A stretch of 64,000 nucleotides of DNA from Erysipelotrichaceae bacterium NK3D112. Its GTDB lineage: Bacteria; Bacillota_I; Bacilli_A; Erysipelotrichales; Erysipelotrichaceae. Below the pieces are notes generated by a model. The model was not told the DNA's origin, searched no databases, and saw only the letters and a list, made by a program, of their open reading frames with translations. Position numbers and translations under genes: made by a program. Position 1 is the first letter of the stretch, and every line of letters begins with the position of its first letter. Of the stretch, positions 25,366 to 40,543 are shown one piece after another. The stretch is from contig JNJQ01000001.1 in assembly GCA_000701725.1 (NCBI GenBank), forward strand, positions 248,001 through 312,000, read 5' to 3'.

Positions 25366-25418
25366 AAAGGAATTCCGCGTATTTTGCCAATCCAGGCCGA
25401 CGCAGGAATTCCTTTTTT
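25366..25418 (+). terminator. Long-stem terminator
   Basis: AAAGGAATTCC-GCG (25366-25379) pairs with CGC-AGGAATTCCTTT (25401-25414), followed by TTTTTT. The flanking A run could also allow function on the minus strand. Confidence 0.75.
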
Positions 25419-25462
25419 CTGTATTTTGACAATAGTCCTGCACCGAATAATGCGCTTCCCTC

Positions 25463-25509
25463 TTGATTTCTTCCAGCTTTGGAATATTATACGGTTAGAG
25501 TTGGCTAAC
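25463..25509 (+). promoter_or_regulatory. HTH-gene promoter with GTTAG-N6-CTAAC palindrome (copy 1)
   Basis: -35 TTGATT (25463), 16-bp spacer, -10 TATTAT (25485-25490), then GTTAG-AGTTGG-CTAAC at 25494-25509 over the predicted start. The same order recurs at 34397-34447 before the decayed HTH copy, supporting an autoregulatory operator. Confidence 0.6.
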
Positions 25510-25587
25510 TTGCGTACTGGTCTCAAACTCAAGGAAAACCGCCTTCTTTTCGAAACGTATTTTATCGCACGGAATGTGAGGTATCAG

Positions 25588-25791
25588 GTGAAAGGTTACT
25601 TAACAGTAAAAGAGACTGCTGAGAAATGGGGCGTATCGGTTCGCTGGGTCAACCGGTATATTCAGGAAGGACGTCTTCCGGGATGCGAGAAGCTTGGAAC
25701 TGTCTGGGCGGTACCGGAGGATGCCGTAAAGCCGGAAAAACTGCCGCCCGGGCCAAAGCCGGAAAAAAGACTTTTCTCGATGCAGAAATAA
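25588..25791 (+). CDS. Small helix-turn-helix (excisionase/MerR-like) DNA-binding protein
   Basis: A 67-residue protein that is almost entirely a winged helix-turn-helix: GYLTVKETAEKWGVSVRWVN followed by IQEGRLPGCEKLGTVWAVPEDA. It resembles excisionase-family DNA-binding domains. GTG 25588 with GAGG 7 bp upstream is chosen; the longer upstream reading crosses the promoter. A frameshifted copy lies at 34503. Both carry the same promoter-palindrome layout, so I infer that this protein binds GTTAG-N6-CTAAC and controls the genes between the copies. Excisionase function is possible but no integrase is near. Confidence 0.7.
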   Translation: MKGYLTVKETAEKWGVSVRWVNRYIQEGRLPGCEKLGTVWAVPEDAVKPEKLPPGPKPEKRLFSMQK

Positions 25792-25830
25792 GTACCGGGC
25801 GTAACGGCTAAAGTATATTTTTGGCCGTTG

Positions 25831-25846
25831 GTTAGCAATGGCTAAC
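25831..25846 (+). promoter_or_regulatory. GTTAG-N6-CTAAC palindrome (copy 2)
   Basis: GTTAG-CAATGG-CTAAC, with the stem extendable by C/G to GTTAGC...GCTAAC. It lies 25 bp upstream of a TATAAT at 25872-25877, so here the site is at or above the -35 region, a position more typical of activation than repression. Confidence 0.6.
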
Positions 25847-25890
25847 GAACGTTCTGTGATAATTCAAAGGATATAATTCAGCAGGAGCGA

Positions 25891-26043
25891 TGGATCTATG
25901 AAAGTAATACACCATATCCGAAATATGCGGAATGGTTTCACCTGTTCGTTGGGATGATGCCGGCACTTGTGCTTTCGGTTATTCTCGGGCCGCATAAAGC
26001 CCTTGGCGCAGGGATCGCTCCGATTGATTTTGCTGCCAAATGA
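25891..26043 (+). pseudogene. C-terminal remnant of a membrane protein
   Basis: A start-less frame of about 50 codons reads YPKYAEWFHLFVGMMPALV and continues hydrophobically to a stop at 26043. No start codon or upstream part is present. It is a leftover of an unidentified membrane protein. Confidence 0.4.
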
Positions 26044-26160
26044 CAGGTCTGGCAGCAAATGATTCTTTGAATCATTCGCCGGATACTCATATTACAAAAG
26101 AACTGCGGGCTGCGAAAACATGAACAGCCGGAACCTTGCGGAATATCAGGTGGTGGGGGT

Positions 26161-26853
26161 ATGAACAGAGAAAAAGCGGAGAGGTATTTAAAACTCGGCC
26201 TGTTCGGGGCAATGCTGACACTGATCGGAGACTGTTTGATCGGCGCGGCAAAGTTTCCGGACGGTGCGAGCATGATCGAAGGCTATTTCGCCATCGCTCT
26301 GACCATGCCCGCATGGCGGCCGATCCTGGGCGGTCTGATCGGTTTCGCGGGGATCTGCCTGGAGTTTCCCGCGCTTATGACGGTCTATCCGCTGATCCGG
26401 GAAAAGATGCCCCGTGGCGGAAACTTTTATAAACTCGCGATGTACGTGTATCTTGCGGTCGGAGGCGGGGCGGTGCACTTGCCCTGCGGTACGTTCATGT
26501 GGATCTACAAAATGGCTGAGGAGGCCGTGGGCCGGGAGATCGCGCGGAATATCGCGCTGCGATATCTGCTGTACTTCCTGCTACCGTCTGCCGCCGTGTT
26601 TGGCGTATTCTTTGTCGGAGCAAGTGTAGTGCAGTTCATCGCTTTCGCTAAGGGCTGCACGCCTTTCCCCAAGTGGTATTGTGTGTTCAATCTACTGATA
26701 GGAAAGGCAGTGTTCAACTCCGTGCGCCGGTTCGGCAACACGGCACTGATCAACGGGATCGGGACGTCCAATATGAGTCTCGGCGCAATCGTGATGTTCA
26801 CGGCGCTGCTGCTTGGCTGGAAAAAGTACGTGGGTAACAGGGAGTATGAATGA
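26161..26853 (+). CDS. Multi-pass membrane protein, paralogue of the protein at 30057
   Basis: A 230-residue protein with about six hydrophobic segments (near residues 10-30, 54-78, 89-108, 138-162, 178-195, 201-219). It shares layout and motifs with 30057-30776: an early LTLIGDCLIG versus LAIIGDYCMG, and a central HLPCGTF versus HLACGTL. It may belong to the DUF6796 group; I name that from memory only. No known catalytic motif is visible. It overlaps the next gene (ATGA) and heads the membrane-protein island. Confidence 0.7.
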   Translation: MNREKAERYLKLGLFGAMLTLIGDCLIGAAKFPDGASMIEGYFAIALTMPAWRPILGGLIGFAGICLEFPALMTVYPLIREKMPRGGNFYKLAMYVYLAVGGGAVHLPCGTFMWIYKMAEEAVGREIARNIALRYLLYFLLPSAAVFGVFFVGASVVQFIAFAKGCTPFPKWYCVFNLLIGKAVFNSVRRFGNTALINGIGTSNMSLGAIVMFTALLLGWKKYVGNREYE

Positions 26854-27293
26854 TGATCGTACAGAAGACTTCTCTCTTTCCGGCATCCAAAGAAACAGTG
26901 TTTCGAAAGCTGCAGCAGCTGGAAACGCTTCAAATGATTGCAAAGCCTTATGCGACCTTTGAGCCGGTCGGAGAGGCTGCCTCAACTTGGGCGGTCGGCA
27001 GCACGTCCGCCTACCGGTTTCGCCTCTTCGGCCTGATCCCCTACGGGACGCACACGATCCACATCCTGCGCTTTGACCCGGAAGGCGTCAGCAGCCGGGA
27101 GGGAAACGCGCATGTGCCGGTTTGGAACCATGAGATCTCGCTGGTCGAGAAGGATGAAAGCCATACCCTGTATACGGATCGGGTGGAGATCCACGCTGGC
27201 TGGAAGACCGTTTTCATCTGGCTGTGGGCAAAGGCTTTCTATGCACACAGGCAGAGAAAGTGGGTCCGCCTGTTAAACGGATCGGAGAGGTGA
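26850..27293 (+). CDS. SRPBCC/START-like domain protein
   Basis: A 147-residue protein with the order of secondary structure and opening of SRPBCC (polyketide-cyclase/Bet v 1-like) proteins: FPASKETVFRKLQQLETLQ, a central RFRLFGLIPYGTHTI and a C-terminal helix. Such folds bind hydrophobic small molecules. Its start overlaps the upstream membrane-protein stop, and the PanE-like gene follows after 6 bp, so all are co-expressed. Ligand unknown. Confidence 0.65.
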   Translation: MMIVQKTSLFPASKETVFRKLQQLETLQMIAKPYATFEPVGEAASTWAVGSTSAYRFRLFGLIPYGTHTIHILRFDPEGVSSREGNAHVPVWNHEISLVEKDESHTLYTDRVEIHAGWKTVFIWLWAKAFYAHRQRKWVRLLNGSER

Positions 27294-27299
27294 CAGCCC

Positions 27300-28157
27300 A
27301 TGAGGATCTTGATTTTTGGCGCCGGTGTGATCGGCAGCCTGTATGCTGCGCTGCTTGCCGAGGCCGGATTCGACGTATCGGTTTACGCGCGCGGGTTGCG
27401 GCTGGAAAGCCTGAGGCAGGACGGACTGCTGTATAAGAGCAATGCTGAGATCCGAAAAGCGCCTGTAAAAGTGCTTTCAAAACTCGAAGCGGGAGACCTC
27501 TATGATCTCGTCTTTCTGACCGTCCGGGAAAACCAGCTGCACGCCGCCTTGGAAGAGCTCCGGCAAAACAGCAGTCCGGCCATCGTCACCATGGTCAATT
27601 CCCTGGAGACCTACGAGAAGTGGGAGGCGATTTGCGGGGAGGGACGGATTATTCCCGCTTTTCCCGGCGCTGGAGGCGGCTTTGACGGAAACGTGCTGGA
27701 CGCGGCCTTGACCCCGCGGCTCATCCAGCCGACAACTATCGGAAAAACAGGCGGAAGAGAAAAAGATCTTGCCCGCGTTCTTCACCGGGCGAAAATTCCC
27801 TGTCAGATCGTGCGGGATATGCACGCCTGGCAGCTTTGTCATCTGGCTATGGTCGTGCCGATCGCCGACGCATATTATGAGACGGCGGATCCCGAGCACG
27901 CGGGAAGAGACGCAGCGCTCATGAGAAAAACCGCAAAGCAGATCCGGGATAACCTTGACGCGATCGCAGCCCGGAAGATCCGGCTGTCTCCGGGGAAAAT
28001 GCAGGCCTTCCGCCTGCTACCCGCGCCGCTCGTGGGATGGGCGCTCGGCTTTGTGTTTGAAAGTTCCTTCGGGGATCGGTTCATGTACCGGCATTCGATG
28101 AAAGCGCCGGATGAGATGCGTCAGCTGCACGAGCAGTTATATCGATGGCTTGAGTAA
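27300..28157 (+). CDS. Ketopantoate-reductase-family NAD(P)-dependent oxidoreductase
   Basis: A 285-residue enzyme with a Rossmann opening ILIFGAGVIGSLYAALLAEAG and a helical C-terminal half as in PanE/ApbA. It departs from housekeeping PanE in the substrate region and is embedded in a membrane-protein operon, so a specialised 2-oxo-acid or ketone reductase is more likely than pantothenate synthesis. Its composition is clearly GC-richer than the phosphate island. Confidence 0.75.
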   Translation: MRILIFGAGVIGSLYAALLAEAGFDVSVYARGLRLESLRQDGLLYKSNAEIRKAPVKVLSKLEAGDLYDLVFLTVRENQLHAALEELRQNSSPAIVTMVNSLETYEKWEAICGEGRIIPAFPGAGGGFDGNVLDAALTPRLIQPTTIGKTGGREKDLARVLHRAKIPCQIVRDMHAWQLCHLAMVVPIADAYYETADPEHAGRDAALMRKTAKQIRDNLDAIAARKIRLSPGKMQAFRLLPAPLVGWALGFVFESSFGDRFMYRHSMKAPDEMRQLHEQLYRWLE

Positions 28158-28206
28158 GAGGGCAATCAAAAAAGAGGACAATATTTTTCACAATCAGGAG
28201 GGCAGC

Positions 28207-28704
28207 ATGCTTTTAACCATATTTCTGGCAATCGGCTTCTGCGCGGCGATGGCTCTGATGCTGATATCATGCGTATCATTTATACAGGACAATAAGTTCT
28301 TCGGCTCGGCCCCGAAGGAAGCGCGGGAAGTGATCATCCAGAAAGAACACGAACTCTTCTACGGGGCCAGGACGATCGGATGGACGCTGTTTATCATCAG
28401 CGTTCTGATGATCCTCGGTGCAGGCGTGATCGCTGTCTGGGACGGACTCAGAAGCGGGTTTACATTCTGGCAGTTCTTTTTAAGATTCGTACTGATCCTC
28501 ACGATCTATAAGATCTGCGACATGACGCTCATTGACAACTTCCTGCTTCTGAAATTCCACTTCTTCCAGCACTATTACCCGGAGGCGGCGCATGTGATGG
28601 AAGGACGGAAATATGGGTTCAACATTGTCAGTCAGCTGCTGAAGCTGTTTGTGATCTTTCCCACAGTCTCCGCGCTGGCAGCGTGGATCTGCACATTGTT
28701 TTGA
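28207..28704 (+). CDS. Four-helix membrane protein, family A (paralogue 1)
   Basis: A 165-residue protein with membrane segments near residues 3-24, 56-78, 88-108 and 142-163. A short motif YKICDMTLIDNF between helices 3 and 4 corresponds to YDTCFLDWVLF in 28729-29235 and LIDRFLIDEYW in 30773-31267. All three are 164-168 residues. GGAGG precedes ATG 28207, which is chosen over an earlier in-frame start inside the PanE-like gene. Function unknown. Confidence 0.6.
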   Translation: MLLTIFLAIGFCAAMALMLISCVSFIQDNKFFGSAPKEAREVIIQKEHELFYGARTIGWTLFIISVLMILGAGVIAVWDGLRSGFTFWQFFLRFVLILTIYKICDMTLIDNFLLLKFHFFQHYYPEAAHVMEGRKYGFNIVSQLLKLFVIFPTVSALAAWICTLF

Positions 28705-28728
28705 TCGTATTGATAAGGAGGTCTGAAT

Positions 28729-29235
28729 ATGAGTATCTGGGTCATCCTGATAGAAATTGCCGTCTTTTCAGCCATATTTACGGCGATCGTTTTCTTTGCC
28801 GCCGGCGGTGACAGAAAGCACTCTCCCGCGGCGATCCATAATTATCCTCCTGATATCCAGGAGGAATACTTTAAAACACATGAGCGAATCGATGTGAGCT
28901 ACAAGTCTAAAAATGTGATCCTGACCAAAGGCTTCGGCGTGCTGCTTTTTACATGTATCCTGCTTGCCTGCTCCCTTATTGCCGGGGCGAAAACCTTCCG
29001 GCAGGGCTTTTTGCTCACTTTCGGCCTGATGGTGTGGATCGGTATCTATGACACATGTTTCCTCGACTGGGTGCTGTTTGCCAATCTTCCGATGTTCCGG
29101 CTGGAAGGCACCGAGCATATGGAGGAAGCCTATCACCAGAAGTGGTTTCATGCGAAGGGCATGCTGTTTCCAGGCATCATCTTCGCACTGATCCCTGCCG
29201 CTCTGGTGGGGTGGCTTGTGACATTGATCCGATGA
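28729..29235 (+). CDS. Four-helix membrane protein, family A (paralogue 2)
   Basis: A 168-residue protein with helices near residues 4-24, 62-82, 90-110 and 143-165. After helix 1 it has a charged loop (GGDRKHSPAAIHNYPPDIQE). It carries the same aspartate motif as paralogues 1 and 3. AAGGAGGT precedes the ATG. Its 3' end is duplicated in decayed form at 34900-34935. Confidence 0.6.
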   Translation: MSIWVILIEIAVFSAIFTAIVFFAAGGDRKHSPAAIHNYPPDIQEEYFKTHERIDVSYKSKNVILTKGFGVLLFTCILLACSLIAGAKTFRQGFLLTFGLMVWIGIYDTCFLDWVLFANLPMFRLEGTEHMEEAYHQKWFHAKGMLFPGIIFALIPAALVGWLVTLIR

Positions 29236-29265
29236 GACGATAACCAAGAGAGGATTAACTTTCCC

Positions 29266-30060
29266 ATGAAATATTTTGAATTTGGTAAAGAGAATGAGGA
29301 ATTGATGGTCCTTCTGCATGGCGGCGGGACCAGCTATCTGGGCGTTCTTCCCACAGCAAAGAAAATTGCGGAGAAATACCATGTCATACTGCTTGCCTAC
29401 GACGGCTTCAACCCGTCCGAACCGGAGACGGAATTTCAGTCTTTGGCCTATGAGGCACAAGGTCTGGAGGATTATCTCATAGAGAATTACGGCGGCAAGA
29501 TAGATATCCTCTATGGCCTTTCCTACGGCTGCCGTACGTTGATGCAGGTGCTGGAGGACAACCGGCTGGAGATCACTACGACGATTGCCGACGGAATGTC
29601 TCTGCGGGATTATCCCGATATCAAAAGCGATTTTTGGAAAGAGGTCTATCTCTTTTTCTTCACTGGAACCTTCTTCGTTATCATGGGCAGAGCAGGAAAG
29701 CTGCGCAAACGGTTCTTGGCAAAGATAACAGGGCGAAGTGTTGAAGAAGCTGACCGGATTCTCTACACCAAGGCCAGCTGGAAAAGCTGGAAGAACCAGG
29801 ATAAGTGCCTGATCGGTAAAAAGACCGATTACAGTGTATTCGAAAATACCGATATGCATATCTGGTATGGGATCAAGGGAACCGTGGACAAAAAGCTTTC
29901 GGCCAATCTGGAAGAACTGAAAGCGAAGGGCTATCCCTTTACCTGTAAAATATTTGAGGACATGGGCCACGGCGGTCTGATCGGCGAAAACACGGAACGC
30001 TTTATCGAAGAGGTGGACGCTGTACACCTGCAATCGAAAAAAACGGAGAAACGAGTATGA
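29266..30060 (+). CDS. Alpha/beta hydrolase
   Basis: A 264-residue alpha/beta-fold hydrolase. The oxyanion-hole motif HGGG is near residue 18, the nucleophile elbow is GLSYG (Ser86), and a C-terminal DMGHGG supplies the histidine. A hydrophobic patch around LFFFTGTFFVIMGRAG may contact the membrane or a lipid substrate. It overlaps the next membrane gene (ATGA). Neighbours suggest an esterase or acylhydrolase in membrane-related metabolism; the substrate is unknown. Confidence 0.8.
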   Translation: MKYFEFGKENEELMVLLHGGGTSYLGVLPTAKKIAEKYHVILLAYDGFNPSEPETEFQSLAYEAQGLEDYLIENYGGKIDILYGLSYGCRTLMQVLEDNRLEITTTIADGMSLRDYPDIKSDFWKEVYLFFFTGTFFVIMGRAGKLRKRFLAKITGRSVEEADRILYTKASWKSWKNQDKCLIGKKTDYSVFENTDMHIWYGIKGTVDKKLSANLEELKAKGYPFTCKIFEDMGHGGLIGENTERFIEEVDAVHLQSKKTEKRV

Positions 30061-30776
30061 CAGCAGAACAACGCGCGAAGATATGTAAACGGATGCTGTG
30101 GATCATTCCCGGCCTGATCCTTGCCATCATCGGCGACTACTGCATGGGGATCGAGCCGAAAGACAGCACGAGCATTTCCTTTATGATTTCTTCAGGCTCG
30201 CTCACCATTTCGGACTGGCGCATTGCGATGTCGAATATTGGCGGCCTGATCGGAACGGTTTTCTATGCGATTGCGGCTCTGAGTTTCATAGAATATCTGA
30301 AATACAAGCTCTCTCAGTGCAGCGACAAATGGGGCAGACGATTCCTGAAGCTCTATATCGCTGGACTGATCTGGGGCTGTATGGTTTTCATCTATTTCCA
30401 CCTGGCCTGCGGAACACTGATCCACAACTACAACGTTATCTATGAAGCGGCACAGGGCGACACGGCAAGAGCGATTGCTGCCTGGAACCGCTCCTACGCC
30501 GTACAGGCCTTTCCCTATTGGGTATCGTTTGTCGTGCTGGGAATTTCCTCTACCGGCGGATGGATCGCCCTCGTTCTAAAGGGCATTCTGCCGCTGAACA
30601 AGATCTGGGTATTGGCGGCTCCGCTTCTCGTTGCTGGAATCGGATTTCTGTTGGAAATGATCCTTCTGCTGCCCTTCAACGGCTTTGCGTCCGGTTTTGA
30701 AAGCTTTGGCTGGATCGTGATGTTCCTCGGGGGGATCCGTGCGATCAGGAATGACGAAGGGGAGACCGGCAGATGA
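30057..30776 (+). CDS. Multi-pass membrane protein, paralogue of the protein at 26161
   Basis: A 239-residue protein with about six membrane segments (near 12-30, 58-80, 99-120, 150-172, 182-203, 212-230). IIGDYCMG and FHLACGTL match the corresponding motifs in 26161-26853. The start overlaps the hydrolase stop and the end overlaps the family A gene at 30773. Function unknown. Confidence 0.65.
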   Translation: MTAEQRAKICKRMLWIIPGLILAIIGDYCMGIEPKDSTSISFMISSGSLTISDWRIAMSNIGGLIGTVFYAIAALSFIEYLKYKLSQCSDKWGRRFLKLYIAGLIWGCMVFIYFHLACGTLIHNYNVIYEAAQGDTARAIAAWNRSYAVQAFPYWVSFVVLGISSTGGWIALVLKGILPLNKIWVLAAPLLVAGIGFLLEMILLLPFNGFASGFESFGWIVMFLGGIRAIRNDEGETGR

Positions 30777-31267
30777 TTGCACTAAAGCTCGTTTTGGAAG
30801 GCCTGGGACTGGGCTTTTTGCTGTATCTGATCTGTGCGATCGGCATTCGTAATGGTGCCGTCGGCATGGTCCATCTGTATGATCAAAAGGTACAGGAGCG
30901 CGTCGTTCAGCTGGGCCTGACGACAGCCGAGCAGATCCGGAAGCGGAGTATATGGTTCAGAAGCCTGTGTCTTCCGGGGTATCTGATCTACGTGCTGATC
31001 TGCGTGTATGTGATCAACGGCACGAGAGGCTTCTTTGAAGGCTTCTGGCAAGGCTTTGTGATCCTGTTCATTATGAATCTGATCGACCGTTTTCTGATCG
31101 ACGAATACTGGGTAGGACATACGAAAGCCTGGATCATCCCGGGTACGGAAGACTTAAGGCCGTATATCACGGCAGAAGACAAAAAGAAAAAATGGATCAT
31201 GGGGACCGCAGGGATGGCGCTTCTTGCCGCCATTCTCTCCGGGTTCATGGCATTGATCCTGAAATAA
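30773..31267 (+). CDS. Four-helix membrane protein, family A (paralogue 3)
   Basis: A 164-residue membrane protein with helices near residues 5-25, 62-82, 88-108 and 143-163. The LIDRFLIDEYW motif aligns with those of paralogues 1 and 2. ATG overlaps the preceding stop (ATGA). The unit DUF-like membrane protein plus family A protein therefore occurs repeatedly within the island. Confidence 0.6.
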   Translation: MIALKLVLEGLGLGFLLYLICAIGIRNGAVGMVHLYDQKVQERVVQLGLTTAEQIRKRSIWFRSLCLPGYLIYVLICVYVINGTRGFFEGFWQGFVILFIMNLIDRFLIDEYWVGHTKAWIIPGTEDLRPYITAEDKKKKWIMGTAGMALLAAILSGFMALILK

Positions 31268-31283
31268 AGAAAGGAACGGAAAA

Positions 31284-31478
31284 ATGGTTACTCTGATCCT
31301 GACGTTGACGATGTGCGCTTTGCTTATCCTTATGATCTGGTCGGTGACGTACTTCTGCCACTGGACGGGCCTGCTACGGTTTTTCCCAAAGGACATGGAA
31401 GAAAAAGCCAGGCTGCATAAGCCGCCTTTCCCGGCCGCACCGGTGATCGTCTGGATACTGATGCTGTTCCAAGTGTAA
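31284..31478 (+). CDS. Small membrane protein with decayed duplicate
   Basis: A 64-residue protein with an N-terminal membrane helix (VTLILTLTMCALLILMIWSV) and a proline-rich second hydrophobic segment. GAAAGGAACGG precedes the ATG. A diverged copy of its first 25 codons lies at 34966-35030, fused behind a decayed family A tail. Function unknown. Confidence 0.5.
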   Translation: MVTLILTLTMCALLILMIWSVTYFCHWTGLLRFFPKDMEEKARLHKPPFPAAPVIVWILMLFQV

Positions 31479-31495
31479 AAGGAGTGAGTATAAGG

Positions 31496-32119
31496 ATGAA
31501 TATGATCGTATCACTGATGGCGGCTGGCGCAAGGAAACGTTTCTCCCGGGAAGAGTACCGGCGGATCCGGGAGGAGGCAAACGCCCTTTTTCAGAAGCTG
31601 ACAGAGGAAAACAGTGATATTCCCAAGGCAATGAAGAAGCACACCGGAACAAACATCTTTCCGGCGATCGCCGTATACAAGACGCTTCTGACCCACGGCT
31701 TGACGACGGATGAAGCTACGGACGTCATTCGGAGTTTTTTCTATAAGATCTGCGAGATCATGTTCCGGCCGGCGGCGTGGTACCAGCACATCGCAGGGAA
31801 CTATCACAGATATCCGGCCGGGATGGTGAAGCACTCCCTGCGGGATTTCAGCCCGGAGGCAGGCTTTATATACAGGATGCCCGAGAAGATCGACCCGGCC
31901 GTAGCCCGGTTCGATATTGTCGCCTGCCCGTATCACGCCATGTGCGAAAAGTATGACTGCCTGGAACTGAACCCCGCCTTCTGTGACAGCGACGATGCCA
32001 AGTACGCAAACCTGCACAGAAATCTGAAATGGGTGCGCAAGAGCACCATCGGCCACGGTGCGCCGTGCTGCGATTTCCGCATCATCGACGTCAGCCGCCG
32101 CCCGGACTATGACGGCTGA
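31496..32119 (+). CDS. ATC-hydrolase-like protein
   Basis: A 207-residue protein resembling the family named after L-2-amino-thiazoline-4-carboxylic acid hydrolase. The C-terminal signature is visible as CPYHAMCEKYDCLELNPAFC and later GHGAPCCDFRI, with several conserved cysteines and histidines. The reference enzyme opens a thiazoline ring to cysteine, but most homologues are unassigned. ATG 31496 is chosen; an in-frame GTG at 31484 is too close to the AAAGGAG site. It follows the membrane-protein run in the same orientation. Confidence 0.7.
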   Translation: MNMIVSLMAAGARKRFSREEYRRIREEANALFQKLTEENSDIPKAMKKHTGTNIFPAIAVYKTLLTHGLTTDEATDVIRSFFYKICEIMFRPAAWYQHIAGNYHRYPAGMVKHSLRDFSPEAGFIYRMPEKIDPAVARFDIVACPYHAMCEKYDCLELNPAFCDSDDAKYANLHRNLKWVRKSTIGHGAPCCDFRIIDVSRRPDYDG

Positions 32120-32154
32120 TATGCGAGGCACAACAACAGGAAGCGTGTGAAATC

Positions 32155-32763
32155 ATGATAAGCAAAGTAAGCACAATGCATTCTGCAAAGATGGAAACGG
32201 CATGCAGAAAAATGGCAGAGAGCTATGTCGACTATGAAATGACCGGAAGAAATCTCGGCATGTGTGAGCATTTGGACAAAGAACACTTTTACCGCTTGAC
32301 CCGGGGCTATTTTGAGGCGGCCGTCAGAAACGGTTCTCTCTACTGTGCAGGTGACAACAGGGAAGGATATTTCATCTTTGAAACGCCGGAAACAAAAAGA
32401 AGTCTATCTGGCAGCCTGATTCAGGCAATATGGTCGCTGCGTGCCTTCGGCCTGAAGAGGGGGATCCGGTATGTCAAAGAAATTATGAATTCGGGTACCT
32501 ATCTCGCGTCTGAGTTTGGCAGGCAGAAAAAACCGTTCACCAAGATCGAGTTTATCGCCGTCGCCAAAGAGCATCAGGGGCAAGGATATATGAGGCAGAT
32601 GATGGAATACGCTTTTTCAGAATCTGATCGGCTTGGGCTTCCATTAATACTTACCACGGATGATCAAAAGAAAGTGGAAATATACGAGCATTTCGGCATG
32701 AAGATGGTGCGGGAACATATTGTGTCTGACAGGGCTGTTTATTATGAGATGCTTAGGAAATAA
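32155..32763 (+). CDS. GNAT-family N-acetyltransferase
   Basis: A 202-residue acetyltransferase. The acetyl-CoA loop is visible as KEHQGQGYMRQMMEYAF and the C-terminal strand region as IYEHFGMKM. It shares its layout, including the long N-terminal helical part, with the frameshifted gene at 33624 and they are clearly paralogues. The acceptor is unknown. Confidence 0.8.
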   Translation: MISKVSTMHSAKMETACRKMAESYVDYEMTGRNLGMCEHLDKEHFYRLTRGYFEAAVRNGSLYCAGDNREGYFIFETPETKRSLSGSLIQAIWSLRAFGLKRGIRYVKEIMNSGTYLASEFGRQKKPFTKIEFIAVAKEHQGQGYMRQMMEYAFSESDRLGLPLILTTDDQKKVEIYEHFGMKMVREHIVSDRAVYYEMLRK

Positions 32764-32778
32764 AAGGAGAAGATGACG

Positions 32779-33600
32779 ATGAAGACATTGCAAATGAATC
32801 AAAAGGCAGACTATGGCAACTGGGTCCCGGCGGCGATGATGAAAACGCTCTGGACGGCAACAGCGGCCATTGCTATTGTTACTGTGCTGATGTTCGTTCT
32901 GATCAAGTCACCGGTGCCGGGCGTTATCGGTACCGTGGTCACATTCGCGGCGCTTTGCATGACACTCTATATGCAAAGGTGCAGAAAGCTGTTTGATTTC
33001 CGGGGCGGCGGTGTGATGGGACAGATCCATCAGTTCCTCGCCGATCATTTCCCCTGGAAGGAAGCTGTCGGAGAAAAGGAAACCGGCCGGATCATCGATA
33101 TCGGCTGCGGAGCAGCTGCGCTGACAAATCGGATCGCCAGGATCTATCCGTCCGCGGAGATCATCGGCGTGGATTTCTGGGGAAAGGAATGGAGCTACGC
33201 GAAGGAACAGTGCGAGAAGAATGCCACTTTAGAGGGTGTGGCAGATCGCGTCGGATTCCAAAAAGGAGACGCCGCCAGACTGGATTATGCGGACGGCGCT
33301 TTTGATGGCGCGGTCAGCAATTTCGTGTTCCATGAGGTGCGCTCTGCGGAGGATAAGCGGGACGTGGTGAAAGAGGCTCTGCGCGTGGTCAGAAAAGGGG
33401 GCGCCTTTGCCTTCCAGGATATGTTCGGCCAGAAGGCCCTGTATGGCGACATGGAAGCGTTTTGTGAAGAACTCCTTCGGAGCGGGACGGTTAAGGAGAT
33501 CCATTACATCCCCAATATTGAGAAGCAGCCCTTTGTACCGGGATTTGTGACGGCCCCGTGGATGATCAGGAACACCGGATTGATATACGGGATCCGGTGA
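32779..33600 (+). CDS. Membrane-anchored class I SAM-dependent methyltransferase
   Basis: A 273-residue protein with two N-terminal membrane helices (about residues 24-42 and 47-65) ahead of a class I methyltransferase domain. Motif I is IIDIGCGAAALTNRI near residues 105-119, followed by IIGVDFWG and the post-motif VSNFVFHEV. The membrane anchor suggests a lipid, quinone or membrane-delivered substrate. AAGGAGA fits ATG 32779 better than 32773. It is followed 23 bp later by the frameshifted GNAT. Confidence 0.78.
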   Translation: MKTLQMNQKADYGNWVPAAMMKTLWTATAAIAIVTVLMFVLIKSPVPGVIGTVVTFAALCMTLYMQRCRKLFDFRGGGVMGQIHQFLADHFPWKEAVGEKETGRIIDIGCGAAALTNRIARIYPSAEIIGVDFWGKEWSYAKEQCEKNATLEGVADRVGFQKGDAARLDYADGAFDGAVSNFVFHEVRSAEDKRDVVKEALRVVRKGGAFAFQDMFGQKALYGDMEAFCEELLRSGTVKEIHYIPNIEKQPFVPGFVTAPWMIRNTGLIYGIR

Positions 33601-33623
33601 TCGGAACGGAGGAGCAGAGAGCT

Positions 33624-34272
33624 ATGATAAAGATGCAGGGCTTATCCGCTGAAGAGCTGCGGGAAATCGCACGGCAGACGGCGGATGCGTTTTATGATTA
33701 CACGTACAATGGCGAGGATATCGGCCTGATCAAATATATCTCATCCCGAGAGGCGATGTTCATCTATATCAGCGCTATCGTTCAGGCTGCCTATAAGGCC
33801 GGCGTGCTGTATACGACTTCAGACCGCAGGGAAGGGTATCTGATGCTGTCCGGCGAAGGAGCCGGAGGAAAGATCGGGCTGATAGACGGATTCAAGATGA
33901 TTGCCGCAGAAAAGAAGGCTCTCGGAGGCTTCGGGAACATGAAGCGGTTCATCAGCGCCTGCTTCTGCGACGGGGGGGACGATCGAGACCCGTATGAGGA
34001 AGGAAAAACGGAAGTTCCTGCGCATCGAGATGCTGATCGTGCGGAAGGAATACCAGGGTCAGGGGCTTATGCGGCAGATGATGGAGTATGCTTACAAAAT
34101 CGCAGAAAGCCATCGGGTGCCTGTAATCCTGGACACAGATGATAAGGACAAGGCGGCCCGTTATGAACATCTCGGAATGAAGCTCGACCGGGTTCGAAAC
34201 TGCGGTGAGCGGTTCCATATGTATGATCTGATCCGCCCTTATTCTGAAATATATTCGTCAACGGAGGAATAA
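33624..34272 (+). pseudogene. GNAT acetyltransferase frameshifted at a G7 run (possible phase switch)
   Basis: GGAGGAG precedes ATG 33624. The first frame encodes the N-terminal half (ending ACFCDGG) and the acetyl-CoA-binding half continues in the +1 frame (KEYQGQGLMRQMMEYAYK, YEHLGMKLDRV). The frame changes at the run of seven G at 33972-33978; six G would restore one 215-residue protein paralogous to the gene at 32155. It may be a true mutation, a slipped-strand switch or a sequencing error. Confidence 0.75.
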
Positions 34273-34396
34273 CTATACCTACAGGCTGCAAAAGTCGAAC
34301 TCGTAGAAATCCTTTATTTTGAGCACTTTTACGAGCATTTCACCGACGGAGCGGCTCATTGCCGACCTTCAAGATGTGTAAAAGGTAGCTTTTCTC

Positions 34397-34447
34397 TTGA
34401 TTTTCTTCCGCGCGTGAAATATATTAAAGAAGTTAGAAAAGACTAAC
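34397..34447 (+). promoter_or_regulatory. Promoter with GTTAG-N6-CTAAC palindrome (copy 3)
   Basis: -35 TTGATT (34397-34402), 17-bp spacer, -10 TATATT (34420-34425), then GTTAG-AAAAGA-CTAAC at 34432-34447. It mirrors the layout at 25463-25509, including the shared TCTTGATTT and CTTCC sequences. Confidence 0.6.
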
Positions 34448-34502
34448 TACCGTTTGCTGCCATAATCTGCAATACAGACCTTCCAAGAGAAAGAGGCGCA
34501 GA

Positions 34503-34666
34503 TTGAAATGGTATCTGTCAGTTCAGCAGACAGCCGATAAATGGGGCGTCTCTGTACGTTGGGGGAATCAGTATATACCGGAAGGAAGATTACGGGCTGC
34601 GAACGCTTTGGACATGTGTGGGCTGTTCCTGAGGATGCAGATAAACCGAAGCGGCTCACACCGTGA
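34503..34666 (+). pseudogene. Decayed copy of the small HTH gene
   Basis: From a TTG at 34503 the frame reads KWYLSVQQTADKWGVSVRW, then IPEGRL, closely matching the intact protein at 25588. A one-base loss near 34590 moves the rest (GCERFGHVWAVPEDADKP) into another frame. The C-terminal extension is shorter. It is preceded by the same type of promoter-operator as the intact gene. Confidence 0.8.
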
Positions 34667-34738
34667 GTGAAGGCTAAGCGGTCTTCTTCTTTTCTGAATG
34701 ATGCACAAAACTTACTGAAGCAATTTTTTTGACATATA

Positions 34739-34754
34739 GTTAGCTTGTACTAAC
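34739..34754 (+). promoter_or_regulatory. GTTAG-N6-CTAAC palindrome (copy 4)
   Basis: GTTAG-CTTGTA-CTAAC, starting 5 bp after a consensus -35 TTGACA (34729-34734). No good -10 at 17 bp is seen, so the promoter may be decayed. Confidence 0.55.
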
Positions 34755-34889
34755 GCAAAGAAGAATCCTATATCTATTATCTAATATGGCAACAAGAATG
34801 ATCCGCCCGTCCTGCTTGTTGCACCGATGATAATATCAGGCGAGGATCTGTATCAACTGATGCATACGCACTTTAAATACAATTAACAT

Positions 34890-35040
34890 TACATATCCGG
34901 CTGCTCTGGTGGGGTGGCTAGTGACCATGATCTGATAAGGCAATATCAGAGGAATGGAGCGGAAAAAGTCACTCTGATCCTGACGCTGACAATGTGCGCT
35001 TTGCTGTTCCTTATGATCTGTTCCGACGCTGCTTGCAGGA
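34890..35040 (+). pseudogene. Chimeric remnant of two island membrane genes
   Basis: 34900-34938 matches the end of the family A gene at 28729 (reading ALVGWLVTMI then stop). After 25 bp, 34966-35030 matches the start of the small gene at 31284 (VTLILTLTMCALL). In the main island these two genes are separated by about 2 kb, so this is a relic of a second, shorter copy of the array. Confidence 0.65.
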
Positions 35041-35107
35041 AAGAAAAAGATAATAACAGCGCTTTCCATGTCTGCAGAATAAGAAAAGCGATATTTACTG
35101 GTTAATA

Positions 35108-35122
35108 GTTAGTTTAGCTAAC
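35108..35122 (+). promoter_or_regulatory. GTTAG-N5-CTAAC palindrome before the ABC pair (copy 5)
   Basis: GTTAG-TTTAG-CTAAC, extendable to AGTTAG...CTAACT, 50 bp before the start of the first ABC gene. It differs from the others by a 5-bp spacer. It suggests that the ABC transporter belongs to the same regulon as the membrane-protein island. Confidence 0.5.
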
Positions 35123-35171
35123 TGTCCTATGAATATATTCTGTTAAAAATCCAAGAAAAGGGAGGTAGTTT

Positions 35172-37001
35172 ATGAAAGAAAAGAAAAAAAGCGACCTGGC
35201 GGTGCTGCTGGGATATACAGGCAGCTATAAAGGCCTGACTTTCCTGGGCCTTGGTCTTTCAGCGGTCGCCATGGTGCTGGGGATGCTCCCGTACATCTGC
35301 ATCTGGCTTGTTGCACGGGATCTGATCGCCGTCGCACCGAACTGGACAGAAGCTGCAGGAATCGCAAAATACGGCTGGATGGCCTTTGGATTTGCCGTAG
35401 CAGGGATTGTTGTGTATTTCGCGGCACTCATGTGTACGCATCTGGCGGCCTTCCGGACGGCTTCCAATATCCGTAAAGCCGGAATGAAGCATCTCATGAA
35501 AGCTCCTTTGGGCTTCTTCGATTCCAATGCTTCCGGACTTCTTCGAAACCGTCTGGACGGAGCGGCCTCCGAAACGGAAACCTTGCTTGCCCACAACCTG
35601 GCGGATATCGTCGGAACTGTGGCCATGTTTATTGCCATGATTGTCCTGATGTTTGTTTTTGACTGGCGCATGGGTGTTTCATGTATGCTGGCAGCAGTTG
35701 TATCTGTCATGGCCATGGCCACGATGATGGGCGGAAAAAACGCCGGGCTCATGGCGGAATATCAGGCGGCACAGGATGTGATGAGTAAAGCAGGGACGGA
35801 ATATGTTCGCGGTATTCCTGTGGTCAAGGTGTTCCAGCAGACCGTGTATTCCTTTAAGGCTTTTAAGCAGGCGATCGAAGATTACAGTGCAAAGGCAGAG
35901 CATTATCAGGCGGATGTCTGCAAAGTGCCCCAGTCCGTGAACCTGACCTTTACCGAAGGGGCCTTTGTCTTTCTGGTTCCAATGGCTCTCCTTCTGGCAC
36001 CGGCAGCCCTTGCCTCCGGCAGCTTTGCGAGCTTTGTGACCAACTTTGCTTTCTATGCTGTGTTCTCTGCGATCATCTCTACAGCGCTGGCAAAGATCAT
36101 GTTTGCTGCCAGCGGCATGATGCTGGCCAGTACGGCATTAGGAAGGATCAGCGAGGTCATGAGTGCGCCTGTCCTTAAGATCACAGATCATCCTCAGGTT
36201 CCGAAAGACAACAGTGTGGAATTCAGGGATGTAAGTTTCACTTACGCCGGTTCAGAGATCCCGGCGCTTGATCATGTGTCATTTAAAGTGGAGCCCGGGC
36301 AGACGGTAGCCCTGGTGGGTCCTTCCGGCGGCGGCAAAACAACGGCAGCGAGCCTCATTCCCCGGTTCTGGGATGTCAGCTCCGGAAATGTTCTTGTGGG
36401 CGGTGTTGATGTCAGAGAGGCTGACCCGCACGTGCTGATGGACCGGGTGGCTTTTGTCTTCCAGAATAACCGCCTGTTCAAGACCAGCATTCTGGAGAAT
36501 GTCAGAGCTTCCAGGCCTGAAGCGAGTCGCGATGAGGTCCGGGCGGCACTCTCTGCAGCACAATGCGATGATATCCTTGAAAAGCTGCCTGACGGTATGG
36601 ATACAATCATCGGGACAGAGGGAACTTACCTTTCCGGCGGTGAACAGCAGCGTGTGGCGCTGGCAAGAGCCATTCTGAAAGACGCGCCGATCGTTGTCCT
36701 TGATGAAGCTACCGCCTTTGCCGATCCCGAAAATGAAGCTATGATCCAGAAGGCTTTTACGACGCTGACAAAGGACCGCACAGTCATCATGATCGCACAT
36801 CGTCTGTCTACCGTCATCGGTGCAGATAAGATCATCGTACTGGATAACGGAAAGGTTTCCGGGGAAGGAACCCATGCAGAGCTGGTACAGGCAAACGGTT
36901 TGTATAGCCGGATGTGGAAAGAGTACAACCAGGCAGTCAAATGGCGGATCTCTCAGGCGGAACCCGCAGAGTCTGTATCTGCGCAAAAGGAGGTGCAGTA
37001 A
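35172..37001 (+). CDS. ABC transporter, fused permease-ATPase, first half of a heterodimer
   Basis: A 609-residue exporter-type ABC protein: six membrane helices in residues 20-325 and an ATPase domain with Walker A GPSGGGKTT (near 383), signature LSGGEQQR, Walker B IVVLDEATAFADPENE and H-loop IAHRLSTV. The DEATAFADPENE variant is typical of siderophore-uptake type pairs (Irp6/YbtP-like), an assignment from memory. GGGAGG precedes the ATG. The stop shares one base with the partner's ATG. Confidence 0.85.
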   Translation: MKEKKKSDLAVLLGYTGSYKGLTFLGLGLSAVAMVLGMLPYICIWLVARDLIAVAPNWTEAAGIAKYGWMAFGFAVAGIVVYFAALMCTHLAAFRTASNIRKAGMKHLMKAPLGFFDSNASGLLRNRLDGAASETETLLAHNLADIVGTVAMFIAMIVLMFVFDWRMGVSCMLAAVVSVMAMATMMGGKNAGLMAEYQAAQDVMSKAGTEYVRGIPVVKVFQQTVYSFKAFKQAIEDYSAKAEHYQADVCKVPQSVNLTFTEGAFVFLVPMALLLAPAALASGSFASFVTNFAFYAVFSAIISTALAKIMFAASGMMLASTALGRISEVMSAPVLKITDHPQVPKDNSVEFRDVSFTYAGSEIPALDHVSFKVEPGQTVALVGPSGGGKTTAASLIPRFWDVSSGNVLVGGVDVREADPHVLMDRVAFVFQNNRLFKTSILENVRASRPEASRDEVRAALSAAQCDDILEKLPDGMDTIIGTEGTYLSGGEQQRVALARAILKDAPIVVLDEATAFADPENEAMIQKAFTTLTKDRTVIMIAHRLSTVIGADKIIVLDNGKVSGEGTHAELVQANGLYSRMWKEYNQAVKWRISQAEPAESVSAQKEVQ

Positions 37002-38743
37002 TGTTCGGAAAAGATTTTCAGCGTAAATATGCGCTTACAGATCAGGGCGTAAAGAATACAAAGCAAGGAACACTCTTCACCGTTATCGTGAATCTTGTGG
37101 TCATGGGCGGAATGGGAATCCTGTATCTTCTCATGACGAAGTTCATGGACACATTAACGACTGGGGCACCGCTTCCGAATGCCCTTACCTTTATCCTGCT
37201 GGTGCTTGCCTTCGTGATCCTTTCCCTGATCACACATATGCAGCAGTACCGTACAACTTATGGCCTGGTATACAGTGAAGTCAAAGCGGTCCGGATCAGC
37301 ATTGCCGAGCGCTTAAGGAAGCTGCCCCTCGGCTATTTCGGGAAACGTGATCTTGCAGATCTCACGGAGACCATTATGGGCGATGTGAATCGGCTGGAGC
37401 ATGTCTGGTCGCATTGTCTGGGATATTTGTATGGATCGTATATTTCCACAGTGATCATTGCTGTCGGACTGTTTATTTACAACTGGAAGCTGGCCATCGC
37501 CTGTCTGTGGGGTGTTCCGGTGGCCTTCGCTCTGCTTTTCGGAAGCCGTAAGCTGGCAAAGAAAAATTCAGAGGTCACAAAAGCAGCGGGAATCCGGGTG
37601 TCTGACGGCATTCAGGAAACTCTCGAAAATATCCGGGAGATCCGGGCTACAAACCAGGAAGAGCGGTTCCTGAATGAGCTGAACACGAAGATCGATCACC
37701 ACGAAAAGACCATGATCAAAGGTGAATTGTCCACCGGTATTTTTGTCAATGCAGCCAGTGTGATCATGCGCCTTGGCGTAGCGACAACGATACTGACAGG
37801 TACGGGGATGATCCTTTCCGGTGAGATCGATTTCATGCTGCTGTTTATGTTCCTGTTAGTGATCACCCGTGTCTATGCGCCTTTCGATCAGGCTCTGGCC
37901 CTGATCGCCGAGATGTTCATGTCCCAGGTCTCCGCCAGCCGTCTGATGGAAATCTATGATGCTAAGACAGCCGATGGGGCTGACAGCTTTACACCGGATG
38001 GACATGATATCGTCTTTGAAAATGTGGGATTTGCCTATGATAATGAACAGGTTCTTCGCGGCGTAAGCTTCACAGCCAAAGAAGGTGAAGTGACCGCACT
38101 GGTCGGCCCTTCCGGTTCCGGCAAGAGCACCTGCGCCAGACTTGCTGCAAGACTTTGGGATATCGACAGCGGTACCATCCGCGTCGGTGGCGTTAACATA
38201 GCGCAGATCGACCCCGAAACTCTGCTTACTGATTATTCCATGGTGTTCCAGGATGTGGTATTGTTTGACGATACCGTGATGGAAAATATCCGTCTTGGCA
38301 AGCACGGTGCTTCAGATGAAGAGGTTCTGGCCGCCGCAAGAGCAGCGAACTGCGACGAGTTCGTAGAGAAACTTCCGCAGGGCTATGCCACGCCCATCGG
38401 AGAAAATGGGGCAAAGCTTTCCGGAGGAGAACGCCAGCGGATCTCGATTGCCCGTGCACTGTTAAAGAATGCACCGATCGTGCTTTTGGACGAAGCGACA
38501 GCTTCCCTTGACGTGGAGAACGAGACGAAGGTGCAAGGTGCGCTGTCACGGCTGCTCTCAGGTAAAACGGTGCTGGTCATCGCTCACCGTATGCGTACTG
38601 TTGAAGCGGCGGATAAGATCGTTGTTCTTGCTGATGGCAAGGTGGCTGAAGAGGGAAGTCCGGCAGAGCTCTTTGCAAAGGAAAACAGTCTTTTCAGACG
38701 TATGACGCAGCTGCAGAATGCCAGCGCAGGATGGAGCATCTGA
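37001..38743 (+). CDS. ABC transporter, fused permease-ATPase, second half of a heterodimer
   Basis: A 580-residue partner with six N-terminal membrane helices and an ATPase domain: Walker A GPSGSGKST (near 368), Q-loop MVFQDVVLF, signature LSGGERQR, Walker B IVLLDEATASLD, H-loop IAHRMRTV. Both nucleotide sites look consensus. AAGGAGGTG and a TAATG junction place it under tight coupling with the first half. Substrate could be a siderophore, peptide or lipid product linked to the upstream island. Confidence 0.88.
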   Translation: MFGKDFQRKYALTDQGVKNTKQGTLFTVIVNLVVMGGMGILYLLMTKFMDTLTTGAPLPNALTFILLVLAFVILSLITHMQQYRTTYGLVYSEVKAVRISIAERLRKLPLGYFGKRDLADLTETIMGDVNRLEHVWSHCLGYLYGSYISTVIIAVGLFIYNWKLAIACLWGVPVAFALLFGSRKLAKKNSEVTKAAGIRVSDGIQETLENIREIRATNQEERFLNELNTKIDHHEKTMIKGELSTGIFVNAASVIMRLGVATTILTGTGMILSGEIDFMLLFMFLLVITRVYAPFDQALALIAEMFMSQVSASRLMEIYDAKTADGADSFTPDGHDIVFENVGFAYDNEQVLRGVSFTAKEGEVTALVGPSGSGKSTCARLAARLWDIDSGTIRVGGVNIAQIDPETLLTDYSMVFQDVVLFDDTVMENIRLGKHGASDEEVLAAARAANCDEFVEKLPQGYATPIGENGAKLSGGERQRISIARALLKNAPIVLLDEATASLDVENETKVQGALSRLLSGKTVLVIAHRMRTVEAADKIVVLADGKVAEEGSPAELFAKENSLFRRMTQLQNASAGWSI

Positions 38744-38802
38744 TCCTCTGAAAGGAATAACTCCAACGCAATAACCGACAAACAGGTACAATATCATTTT
38801 TG

Positions 38803-38833
38803 AGAAGCGTTCCTTCGGAAGCGCTTCTTTTTT
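38803..38833 (+). terminator. Terminator after the ABC pair
   Basis: AGAAGCGTTCC pairs with GGAA-GCGCTTCT (one bulge) around a TTC loop, followed by TTTTTT. Confidence 0.8.
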
Positions 38834-38855
38834 ATTTCGCTCAGTCGCATGCCGT

Positions 38856-38896
38856 TTGACAGAAAGATAAACACAGAATACCATAACAAATGTTAT
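38856..38896 (+). promoter_or_regulatory. TetR-gene promoter with ATAACA-AA-TGTTAT operator
   Basis: -35 TTGACA (38856-38861), 17-bp spacer, -10 TACCAT (38879-38884). A perfect 14-bp palindrome at 38883-38896 overlaps the -10 end and the start site. The regulator gene begins at 38915, so autorepression is likely. Confidence 0.55.
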
Positions 38897-38914
38897 AGTA
38901 ATAAGGGTGATGCT

Positions 38915-39469
38915 ATGCCGAAGAAACCGACGACGACAAAAGAAGACATGATCGAAGGCGCTTTCCGCCTGATCCGTGATAAAGGGCACGAAGCATTGAC
39001 GGTAAGAAACCTGGCATCTTTTCTGGGGTGTTCAACGCAGCCGATCATGTATCAGTTTCCCGATACCGATGTTCTGAAAGATCTGACTTACCGGAAAGCG
39101 GACTCATTTCACAGCGAATATATCCTTGCGGGCACGGATCTTTTGGATATTGGGATCAGATATATCCGCTTTGCAAAGGAGGAGCCTCAGTTATTCCGCT
39201 TTCTTTTTCAATCCGGCCGTTTTTCCGGGTTAAGCCTTGAAGATCTGATCATGGCGCCGGAAACAGCAGAAGTGCTTGCGGCAGTCAGTTCGGAAGAAGA
39301 ACTGAGTGCAGAAGAAGCTGCTGCATTTTTTGAGCCGCTTGTTGCGGTTGTTCATGGCTATGCAAGCCTGATCGCAAATAATGCGATGAAATATGATCCT
39401 GATGCAATCCGGAACGCATTGATGATGATTGCGGAAGGAATAGAGAGGGGAAGAAACCAAAATGAATAA
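38915..39469 (+). CDS. TetR-family transcriptional regulator
   Basis: A 184-residue TetR protein. The helix-turn-helix is in residues 10-55 (LIRDKGHEALTVRNLASFLG then STQPIMYQF). The C-terminal ligand domain includes a WHG-like FRFLFQSGRF region. AAGGGTG precedes ATG 38915. It overlaps the CPBP protease gene by 8 bp and is its likely partner. Confidence 0.82.
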   Translation: MPKKPTTTKEDMIEGAFRLIRDKGHEALTVRNLASFLGCSTQPIMYQFPDTDVLKDLTYRKADSFHSEYILAGTDLLDIGIRYIRFAKEEPQLFRFLFQSGRFSGLSLEDLIMAPETAEVLAAVSSEEELSAEEAAAFFEPLVAVVHGYASLIANNAMKYDPDAIRNALMMIAEGIERGRNQNE

Positions 39470-40217: not shown

Positions 40218-40219
40218 AA

Positions 40220-40543
40220 AACAAATACGATCCTGATGACTGGTCTTCCTTCAGCGATGTTCCGTTTGTTTCGATCGTTCCTTCCAACCGTCTGCTGTAT
40301 TCAAGAATCAGCACAGTCATGCGTGATTATTCCTATGAACCGGCTGTGATCAACCACGCAACGACAATCGAGTCTGTTCTTTCGCTTGTGAAAAACGGCT
40401 GCGGCATTACAATCCTTCCCGGCGGTTCTGATCCCGATCCGAAGAACAGTCATCTTCAGACAATTCAGATCAGGAATCCCGCTTCTTTGATCCGCTTGAC
40501 GGTTTCCCAGCGCCGCAATGCGGATTATCCGCTGATTTCATAG
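40220..40543 (+). pseudogene. C-terminal remnant of a LysR-family regulator
   Basis: A start-less frame encodes part of a LysR ligand-binding domain (VPFVSIVPSNRLL, ATTIESVLSLVKNGCGITILP). The DNA-binding half and the start are missing. It abuts the CPBP gene directly, showing a deletion or insertion junction at about 40218. Confidence 0.75.

Follow-up and report, generated by a model that had tools for sequence, protein, structure and literature searches.

The 64,000-nucleotide stretch of Erysipelotrichaceae bacterium NK3D112 considered here (positions 248,001 to 312,000 of contig JNJQ01000001.1; hereafter 'the window', in which all positions are counted) harbors an island of predicted membrane proteins and enzymes, the promoters of which carry the palindrome GTTAG-N6-CTAAC. 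An earlier note on this DNA, made from the letters of the window and a list of its open reading frames alone and numbered over the whole stretch, had pointed to five such palindromes and had ascribed to them a regulon private to the island. The analysis described below argues instead that the palindrome is probably the operator of an iron-sensing repressor of the DtxR type, and that the island is an iron-starvation operon, which appears to be one of at least two paralogous operons of that kind in the genome.

Composition of the island

The features from the first palindrome to the last are as follows.

25494..25509, no strand: putative iron-box palindrome 1 (GTTAG-N6-CTAAC), directly 3' of a TATTAT-like -10 element
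25588..25791, + strand: HTH_17 protein of 67 amino acids (PF12728, E=3.7e-10), between palindromes 1 and 2, with the same layout in loci L085 and L102
25831..25846, no strand: putative iron-box palindrome 2
26161..26853, + strand: DUF6796 membrane protein a (PF20599, E=5.8e-42)
26850..27293, + strand: SRPBCC-like protein, assigned by eye, with homologues in five other loci
27300..28157, + strand: ketopantoate-reductase-like (KPR, ApbA) protein (PF02558, E=6.9e-20; 92% identity to the copy in genome G030)
28207..28704, + strand: TM165a membrane protein, belonging to no Pfam family
28729..29235, + strand: TM165b membrane protein
29266..30060, + strand: alpha/beta hydrolase with a GLSYG nucleophile elbow (PF12697, E=2.2e-5, just under the cut-off)
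30057..30776, + strand: DUF6796 membrane protein b (PF20599, E=2.8e-27)
30773..31267, + strand: TM165c membrane protein with four long helices, the marker of the module
31284..31478, + strand: truncated fourth TM165 protein of 64 amino acids, with a full-length homologue of 162 amino acids in G030 (L085:13372-13857)
31496..32119, + strand: ATC-hydrolase family protein (PF14196, E=9.8e-22)
32155..32763, + strand: GNAT 1 (PF13508, E=2.8e-7)
32773..33600, + strand: class I S-adenosylmethionine (SAM) methyltransferase with a hydrophobic N-terminus (PF08241, E=5.6e-18)
33624..34272, + strand: GNAT 2, with a frameshift near 33977-33981 in a G tract and with a full-length homologue at L118:2423-3112
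34356..35020, + strand: scar of a putative second island copy, with a decayed leader (palindrome, HTH_17, palindrome, hydrolase start) followed by TM165 fragments
34432..34447, no strand: putative iron-box palindrome 3, inside the scar
34739..34754, no strand: putative iron-box palindrome 4, inside the scar
35108..35122, no strand: palindrome 5, with an aberrant N5 gap, 49 bases 5' of an ATP-binding cassette (ABC) operon; a putative operator of uncertain function

Pfam assigns to the island two DUF6796 proteins, an ApbA protein, an ATC_hydrolase, a GNAT, a methyltransferase, an HTH_17 protein and, weakly, an alpha/beta hydrolase. The gene list of the earlier note was right in outline; its SRPBCC assignment drew no Pfam match at E<=0.01, and the second of its two GNAT genes is frameshifted, which could reflect either real decay or an assembly error. 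The three TM165 proteins of the window, each of about 165 residues, gave no Pfam match, and align with one another and with their homologues around two invariant aspartates.

The pattern GTTAG-N5/6-CTAAC occurs exactly five times in the window, against an expectation of 0.08, and no shuffled sequence reached five; all five palindromes that had been reported (25494, 25831, 34432, 34739 and 35108) were found at those positions. Two of them lie in the region at 34356-35020, which, judging from its sequence, is the remnant of a second copy of the island: positions 34356-34894 display 80% identity to the leader found in the island of G030, with its palindrome, HTH_17, second palindrome and hydrolase start, and positions 34897-35020 consist of fragments of two TM165 genes. 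The decayed HTH copy (34503-34663) therefore shows the same layout as the intact gene (25588-25791), as had been noted earlier, with a palindrome upstream at 71 and 94 bases, respectively, and another downstream at 236 and 243 bases. No intact gene is visible under the control of the sites at 34432 and 34739.

Distribution of the palindrome in the genome and its relatives

A pattern search of the host genome (3.15 Mb in 95 contigs) found ten exact palindromes, of which half lie in the window and half elsewhere. The five sites outside the window precede a feoA-feoA-feoB operon (C2:53192), a locus encoding a TetR protein and an ABC transporter (C9:40714), an alpha/beta hydrolase gene that heads a second, paralogous island (C14:43897) and, as a tandem pair (C14:67372 and C14:67430), a DUF3793-flavodoxin-phosphoglycerate mutase (dPGM) operon. 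Restriction of the palindrome to promoters of the island was accordingly correct within the window and failed genome-wide, where all five further sites are exact N6 sites. The earlier note had held that a palindrome common elsewhere in the genome would speak against its regulon; the palindrome does recur, in a limited and informative way, with ten sites in 3.15 Mb and several of them at iron genes.

Twelve relatives, eight from the same genus and four from another family of the order, harbor from 3 to 11 N6 sites per genome. Among the sites whose surroundings were read, with gene names assigned by eye, the genes led by the box include feoA/feoB, a siderophore-binding protein and FecCD permease (L015), ABC pairs, DUF3793/flavodoxin genes and FeoB-associated cysteine-rich proteins, as well as a ZIP transporter, AhpC, csoR-copA, and operons with ATC-hydrolase or methyltransferase genes. 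At 30 feoB loci drawn from the family, the exact GTTAG-N6-CTAAC sequence was found in 19 and the core TTAG-N6-CTAA in 23, while other spacings yielded 0-1 exact and 0-6 core sites. Thirty RecA control loci (111 kb) contained no N6 site, and their single exact site at any spacing was N8. A separate spacing control, TTAG-N8-CTAA, gave one match.

These distributions bear directly upon the proposal of a private regulon of the segment, run by the 67-residue HTH_17 protein through binding to the palindromes. The gene for this protein does have a palindrome on either side, both in the window and in L085 and L102, and a palindrome is found near an HTH_17 gene in L135, L117, L101 and L158. The palindrome is nevertheless not confined to HTH_17-linked genes in the genome, at the feoB loci or at the TM165 loci: it precedes feoB in those 19 of 30 family loci, and it occurs in most TM165 loci lacking an HTH_17 homologue. 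The half-site and spacing, moreover, fit DtxR, and the HTH_17 gene is more simply read as a target of the box. That the protein should be the binder is thus highly improbable, and as a master regulator it was rejected on the distribution of the palindrome. The palindromes do mark a regulon, as had been claimed; it is the private character of that regulon that fails, given the box before feoAB, flavodoxin and siderophore-transport genes.

Conservation of the TM165 module

The distribution of the module was established by a scan of GTDB genomes with an alignment of the TM165c branch, an alignment of all TM165 branches being too divergent for that purpose. The scan returned 302 matches, and sites and neighbors were counted in the best 80 of these 302 loci (1.11 Mb), which belong predominantly to Lachnospiraceae, Oscillospiraceae, Erysipelotrichaceae and other groups of the gut and rumen, with Gemmiger, Faecalibacterium, Blautia luti and Solobacterium among them. 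Those loci contain 76 GTTAG-N6-CTAAC sites, distributed over 50 loci, against 0-5 at each of the remaining spacings between 0 and 15, and the density of N6 sites is 24-fold that of the host's own genome. Of the 76 sites, only two are intragenic with respect to the named families; for those that have the start of a named gene no more than 400 bases away, the median distance to it is approximately 36. When TM165c was clustered at 85% identity, a site was present in 16 of the 28 clusters, with none at the control spacings of 4, 5, 7 and 8.

The half-sites given in the earlier note hold, and its N5/6 gap does not, the true spacing being 6. The site at 35108 is the sole N5 palindrome of the genome, and the 1.11 Mb of TM165c loci contain none; 35108 may therefore be a damaged box.

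Neighboring genes were clustered over the 80 loci and 11 related ones, the window included, and some of the resulting counts include closely related genomes. The recurrent families are DUF6796 (42 loci), hydrolases (42, 19 and 12), methyltransferases (41 and 26), ATC-hydrolase-like proteins (38 and 14), ABC transporters (26), TM165a (25), metallo-beta-lactamase-fold proteins (14), KPR (13), P1B ATPases (11), ZupT (7), DUF3793 (4), DUF6110 (4) and DtxR (3). The expectation that relatives would share the gene neighborhood was borne out by these loci. A near-identical island of the window type is present in a different genus (G030), with 92% identity for KPR, 92% for TM165a and 93% for DUF6796b, and the island has a G+C content of 51% (50-51% for the island and ABC operon, 25400-40300) as compared to 42-44% in the flanks; these two features suggest that the island was acquired by horizontal transfer. 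Upstream of the island, positions 21384-22025 encode a protein that by eye resembles the C-terminal part of a large serine recombinase, which together with the G+C contrast suggests mobility.

While competition for iron shapes the gut community, little has been written about the genes with which commensal Clostridia and Erysipelotrichia meet iron starvation, and searches of the literature turned up no paper on DUF6796 and none joining a DtxR-family regulator with iron limitation in these commensals. The 16-base-pair box GTTAG-N6-CTAAC offers a handle on their iron-starvation regulon, and points to an undescribed module that includes the four-transmembrane family TM165.

Identity of the box and of its regulator

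Two copies of TTAG-N6-CTAA, five bases apart, are present in the published DtxR consensus, TTAGGTTAGCCTAACCTAA (PMC7762939). The palindrome described here shares with DtxR and IdeR boxes the TTAG inverted repeat, the 6-base gap and a placement at iron-uptake and iron-sparing promoters (feoB, flavodoxin and a siderophore-binding protein); it differs in being a single 16-base-pair palindrome, whereas the known system has two overlapping ones within 19 base pairs. A single protein of the genome, of 126 amino acids and encoded on contig C14, exceeds the Pfam cut-off for the DtxR family. Aligned on MntR, it has a cysteine at the position of Glu99 (motif ACKIEH), as do 25 of the 29 DtxR family members listed, the protein itself included. 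The equivalent position in DtxR is Cys102, a metal ligand, so that the protein has the cysteine of the iron type. The genes for DtxR and FeoB lie, by their coordinates, within about 3 kb of one another in several genomes of the family (for example at G030:C43, G042:C117 and G032:C8). That the palindrome is the operator of a metal-responsive DtxR-family protein is thus very probable, and there is good reason to believe that the sensed metal is iron; binding by this protein, and derepression at low iron, are predictions from the same comparisons.

Two other candidate regulators were set aside. The genome encodes one FUR-family protein, which is probably Zur because a ZnuA-like gene adjoins it, and the palindrome was accordingly rejected as a Fur box; a local TetR protein is not needed, since the feoB sites occur without one.

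Several observations weigh against an iron-responsive box and an iron-starvation operon. The C-terminal SH3-like domain of iron-responsive DtxR is absent from the C14 protein, which scores best against MntR models, and family members lacking that domain have so far been reported without an Fe2+ response in vivo (PMC7762939). No box was found near the DtxR gene itself in the host genome, and an exact site was found at only one of 30 DtxR loci. Thirty of the 80 TM165c loci have no exact box in the sequence examined, and the same box precedes csoR-copA (copper efflux), not an obvious iron gene, in the genus relatives L024, L026, L047 and L053, and lies near copA in L020. The window island, finally, contains no gene of proven iron function, with the exception, by similarity, of the ABC pair, whose box has the wrong spacing. 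On account of the missing domain the term 'DtxR-type box' is used here, with no claim to a DtxR or IdeR orthologue; the regulator is nearer to MntR in length, and the module that it would control is not part of the known DtxR/IdeR systems.

The absence of the SH3 domain means that Mn2+ could be the sensed metal, in which case the box would answer an MntR-like protein and the island would be a manganese-starvation module. The best score of the DtxR protein against MntR is in keeping with that assignment, as are the boxes before dPGM, the phosphoglycerate mutase isozyme that needs no metal. The regulon, however, includes feoAB, flavodoxin and siderophore genes, and the regulator has a cysteine in place of Glu99 of MntR, which together make the manganese assignment distinctly unlikely.

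DtxR-family regulators are also encoded inside or beside TM165 islands at L110:1619-2011, L150:4508-4879 and L152:37-432.

The ABC pair

The fifth palindrome, as had been stated, precedes an ABC heterodimer, although its aberrant spacing makes a role as operator uncertain. The genes of that operon and those that follow it are listed below.

35172..37001, + strand: ABC half-transporter 1; best half-transporter match in the PDB is YbtP (6p6i_A, E=1.2e-88), followed by IrtA
36992..38743, + strand: ABC half-transporter 2; best half-transporter match in the PDB is YbtQ (6p6i_B, E=8.9e-80)
38849..39469, + strand: TetR-family regulator (TetR_C_33; PF13305, E=7.2e-8)
39462..40217, + strand: CPBP (Rce1-like) membrane protease (PF02517, E=5.1e-19)

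The pair shares with YbtPQ and IrtAB a heterodimeric architecture of exporter-fold halves, and these are its closest half-transporters by sequence, while in sum the two-half P-glycoproteins outscore YbtP and YbtQ. The extra N-terminal domain of IrtA is absent from the window pair, for which a siderophore substrate is only putative. Because the halves best match YbtP/IrtA and YbtQ among half-transporters, the pair is more likely to bring in a ferri-ligand than to act in export. The earlier note was therefore right to count a transporter within the regulon, and its suggestion of export is not favored.

That note had envisaged the synthesis or modification and export of a small molecule or lipid, or resistance to one. 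An iron-independent cluster of that kind would account for the mixture of tailoring enzymes and a transporter; it is very improbable, given that the promoters have the same box as feoB, that no core biosynthetic enzyme was seen in the island and that the ABC pair resembles importers.

Within an iron-responsive regulon, the pair might import a ferri-metallophore, of the cell's own making or foreign, with the hydrolases and the ATC-hydrolase-like, KPR-like and methyltransferase enzymes opening, modifying or building the ligand. The similarity of the ABC halves to YbtPQ and IrtAB argues for such a role, as do the presence of ABC genes in 26 of the clustered loci, the GxSxG motif retained in many hydrolases, and the box before the siderophore-binding-protein and FecCD genes of L015. 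The island, on the other hand, contains no substrate-binding protein, nonribosomal peptide synthetase (NRPS) or NRPS-independent siderophore (NIS) synthetase, and metallophore uptake leaves TM165 and DUF6796 unexplained; it is a possibility to be entertained, if somewhat doubtful.

TetR and CPBP genes related to those of the window (38849-40217; 38% and 28% identity) are present at L083:1-1073 (G035). They lie approximately 5.6 kb 5' of a further TM165 operon, which is itself led by a box and followed by ABC genes.

The paralogous island and possible iron storage

The paralogous island on contig C14 encodes two hydrolases, ATC-hydrolase-like proteins, two methyltransferases, a DUF6796 protein, TM165a, TM165c, a P-type ATPase and a ZupT-like transporter. 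The ATPase is one of 11 found in the clustered loci (this island and ten others) that bear the signs of a P1B-6 ATPase: HN in the last transmembrane segment (in nine of the 11, the other two being shortened), SCALK in the fourth transmembrane segment, and no CPC. On C14 it is preceded by the only DUF6110 gene of the genome, and in G063 a DUF6110-P1B-6 operon has three boxes upstream.

The ATPase CD0591 of Clostridioides difficile is, we assume, FezB, for which a motif R-X8-GR provides a lead only. In that organism feoAB, fldX, zupT and CD0591 are upregulated at low iron or upon loss of fur (PMC6311696); the regulon described here similarly contains feoAB, flavodoxin, ZupT and an ATPase, and differs in the family of its repressor and in its box.

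These likenesses raise the question of a membrane store of the ferrosome type, in which TM165, DUF6796 and the lipid-type enzymes would shape a compartment filled by the P1B-6 ATPase. The sister island with its DUF6110 and P1B-6 pair, the 11 loci with such an ATPase, the usual pairing of DUF6110 with P1B-6 ATPases (PMC9374683), and the requirement in C. difficile for the Fur-repressed FezA and FezB in ferrosome formation (PMC12574912) all speak for it. The sister and related islands share with ferrosome (fez) clusters a P1B-6 ATPase, here under a putative iron box and with a small DUF6110 partner that may be the counterpart of FezA. The window island differs in having no P1B-6 ATPase gene, which is also missing from most TM165 loci examined; no match to FezC-like cytochrome (DUF4405) was found among the proteins scanned, and some P1B-6 ATPases do not make ferrosomes. 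Such a store is rather unlikely, and some other membrane remodeling within iron handling is less likely again.

Structure models of TM165c and DUF6796

AlphaFold 2 (AF2) models of TM165c (pLDDT 92.9) and of DUF6796 protein a (pLDDT 96.4) both describe helical membrane proteins, with invariant Asp105 and Asp110 in the former and, in a 29-row alignment, invariant Asp24 and His106 in the latter. A Foldseek comparison of the two models to the PDB gave no match with E<=0.001. A VIA comparison gave a best Z of 8.2 for both, to FtsX and then other ABC membrane domains of the MacB/LolCDE/HrtBA kind for TM165c, and to a designed helical barrel and rhodopsins for DUF6796; these scores are within the range of common helical arrangements, and no function was drawn from them. 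In the models, the acidic residues and histidine of the membrane helices would be compatible with metal or proton handling.

A working model of the module

The module likely serves the handling of iron, for which the following sequence of events is proposed: (i) in the presence of iron, the 126-residue DtxR-family protein encoded on C14 would occupy the boxes, at positions next to or overlapping promoter elements (that at 25494 directly following the TATTAT -10), and transcription would be blocked; (ii) at low iron the repressor would leave the boxes, and the island would be transcribed together with the genes for Feo, flavodoxin and the importer; and (iii) the products (TM165, DUF6796, the hydrolases, methyltransferases, ATC-hydrolase-like, KPR-like and GNAT proteins, along with the neighboring YbtPQ/IrtAB-like ABC pair) would act on iron at the membrane by obtaining, unpacking or storing it, either through uptake and opening of a metal-ligand complex, or by building or modifying a membrane that stores iron with the P1B-6 ATPase present in the sister island, or both.

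A DtxR-type iron-starvation regulon is in itself a known system, and what appears to be undescribed is the widespread membrane-enzyme module inside it. It is conceivable, though unlikely, that TM165 and DUF6796, together with the lipid-type hydrolases and methyltransferases, constitute a new iron-handling membrane system that is induced by iron starvation and has spread horizontally among common gut and rumen bacteria. It would act as an iron carrier in the membrane or as a compartment for iron storage, and would be different from ferritin, encapsulin and the ferrosomes described so far.

Glycolytic genes behind the box

A dPGM-type phosphoglycerate mutase gene lies directly 3' of the box, either alone or following DUF3793-flavodoxin, at G000:C14:65616-67445 (L095), L052 and L063, plausibly reflecting an isozyme swap under metal limitation. 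An exact palindrome is also found approximately 20 bases 5' of the enolase gene in L017 (G012), where it may be either a chance occurrence or a real target.

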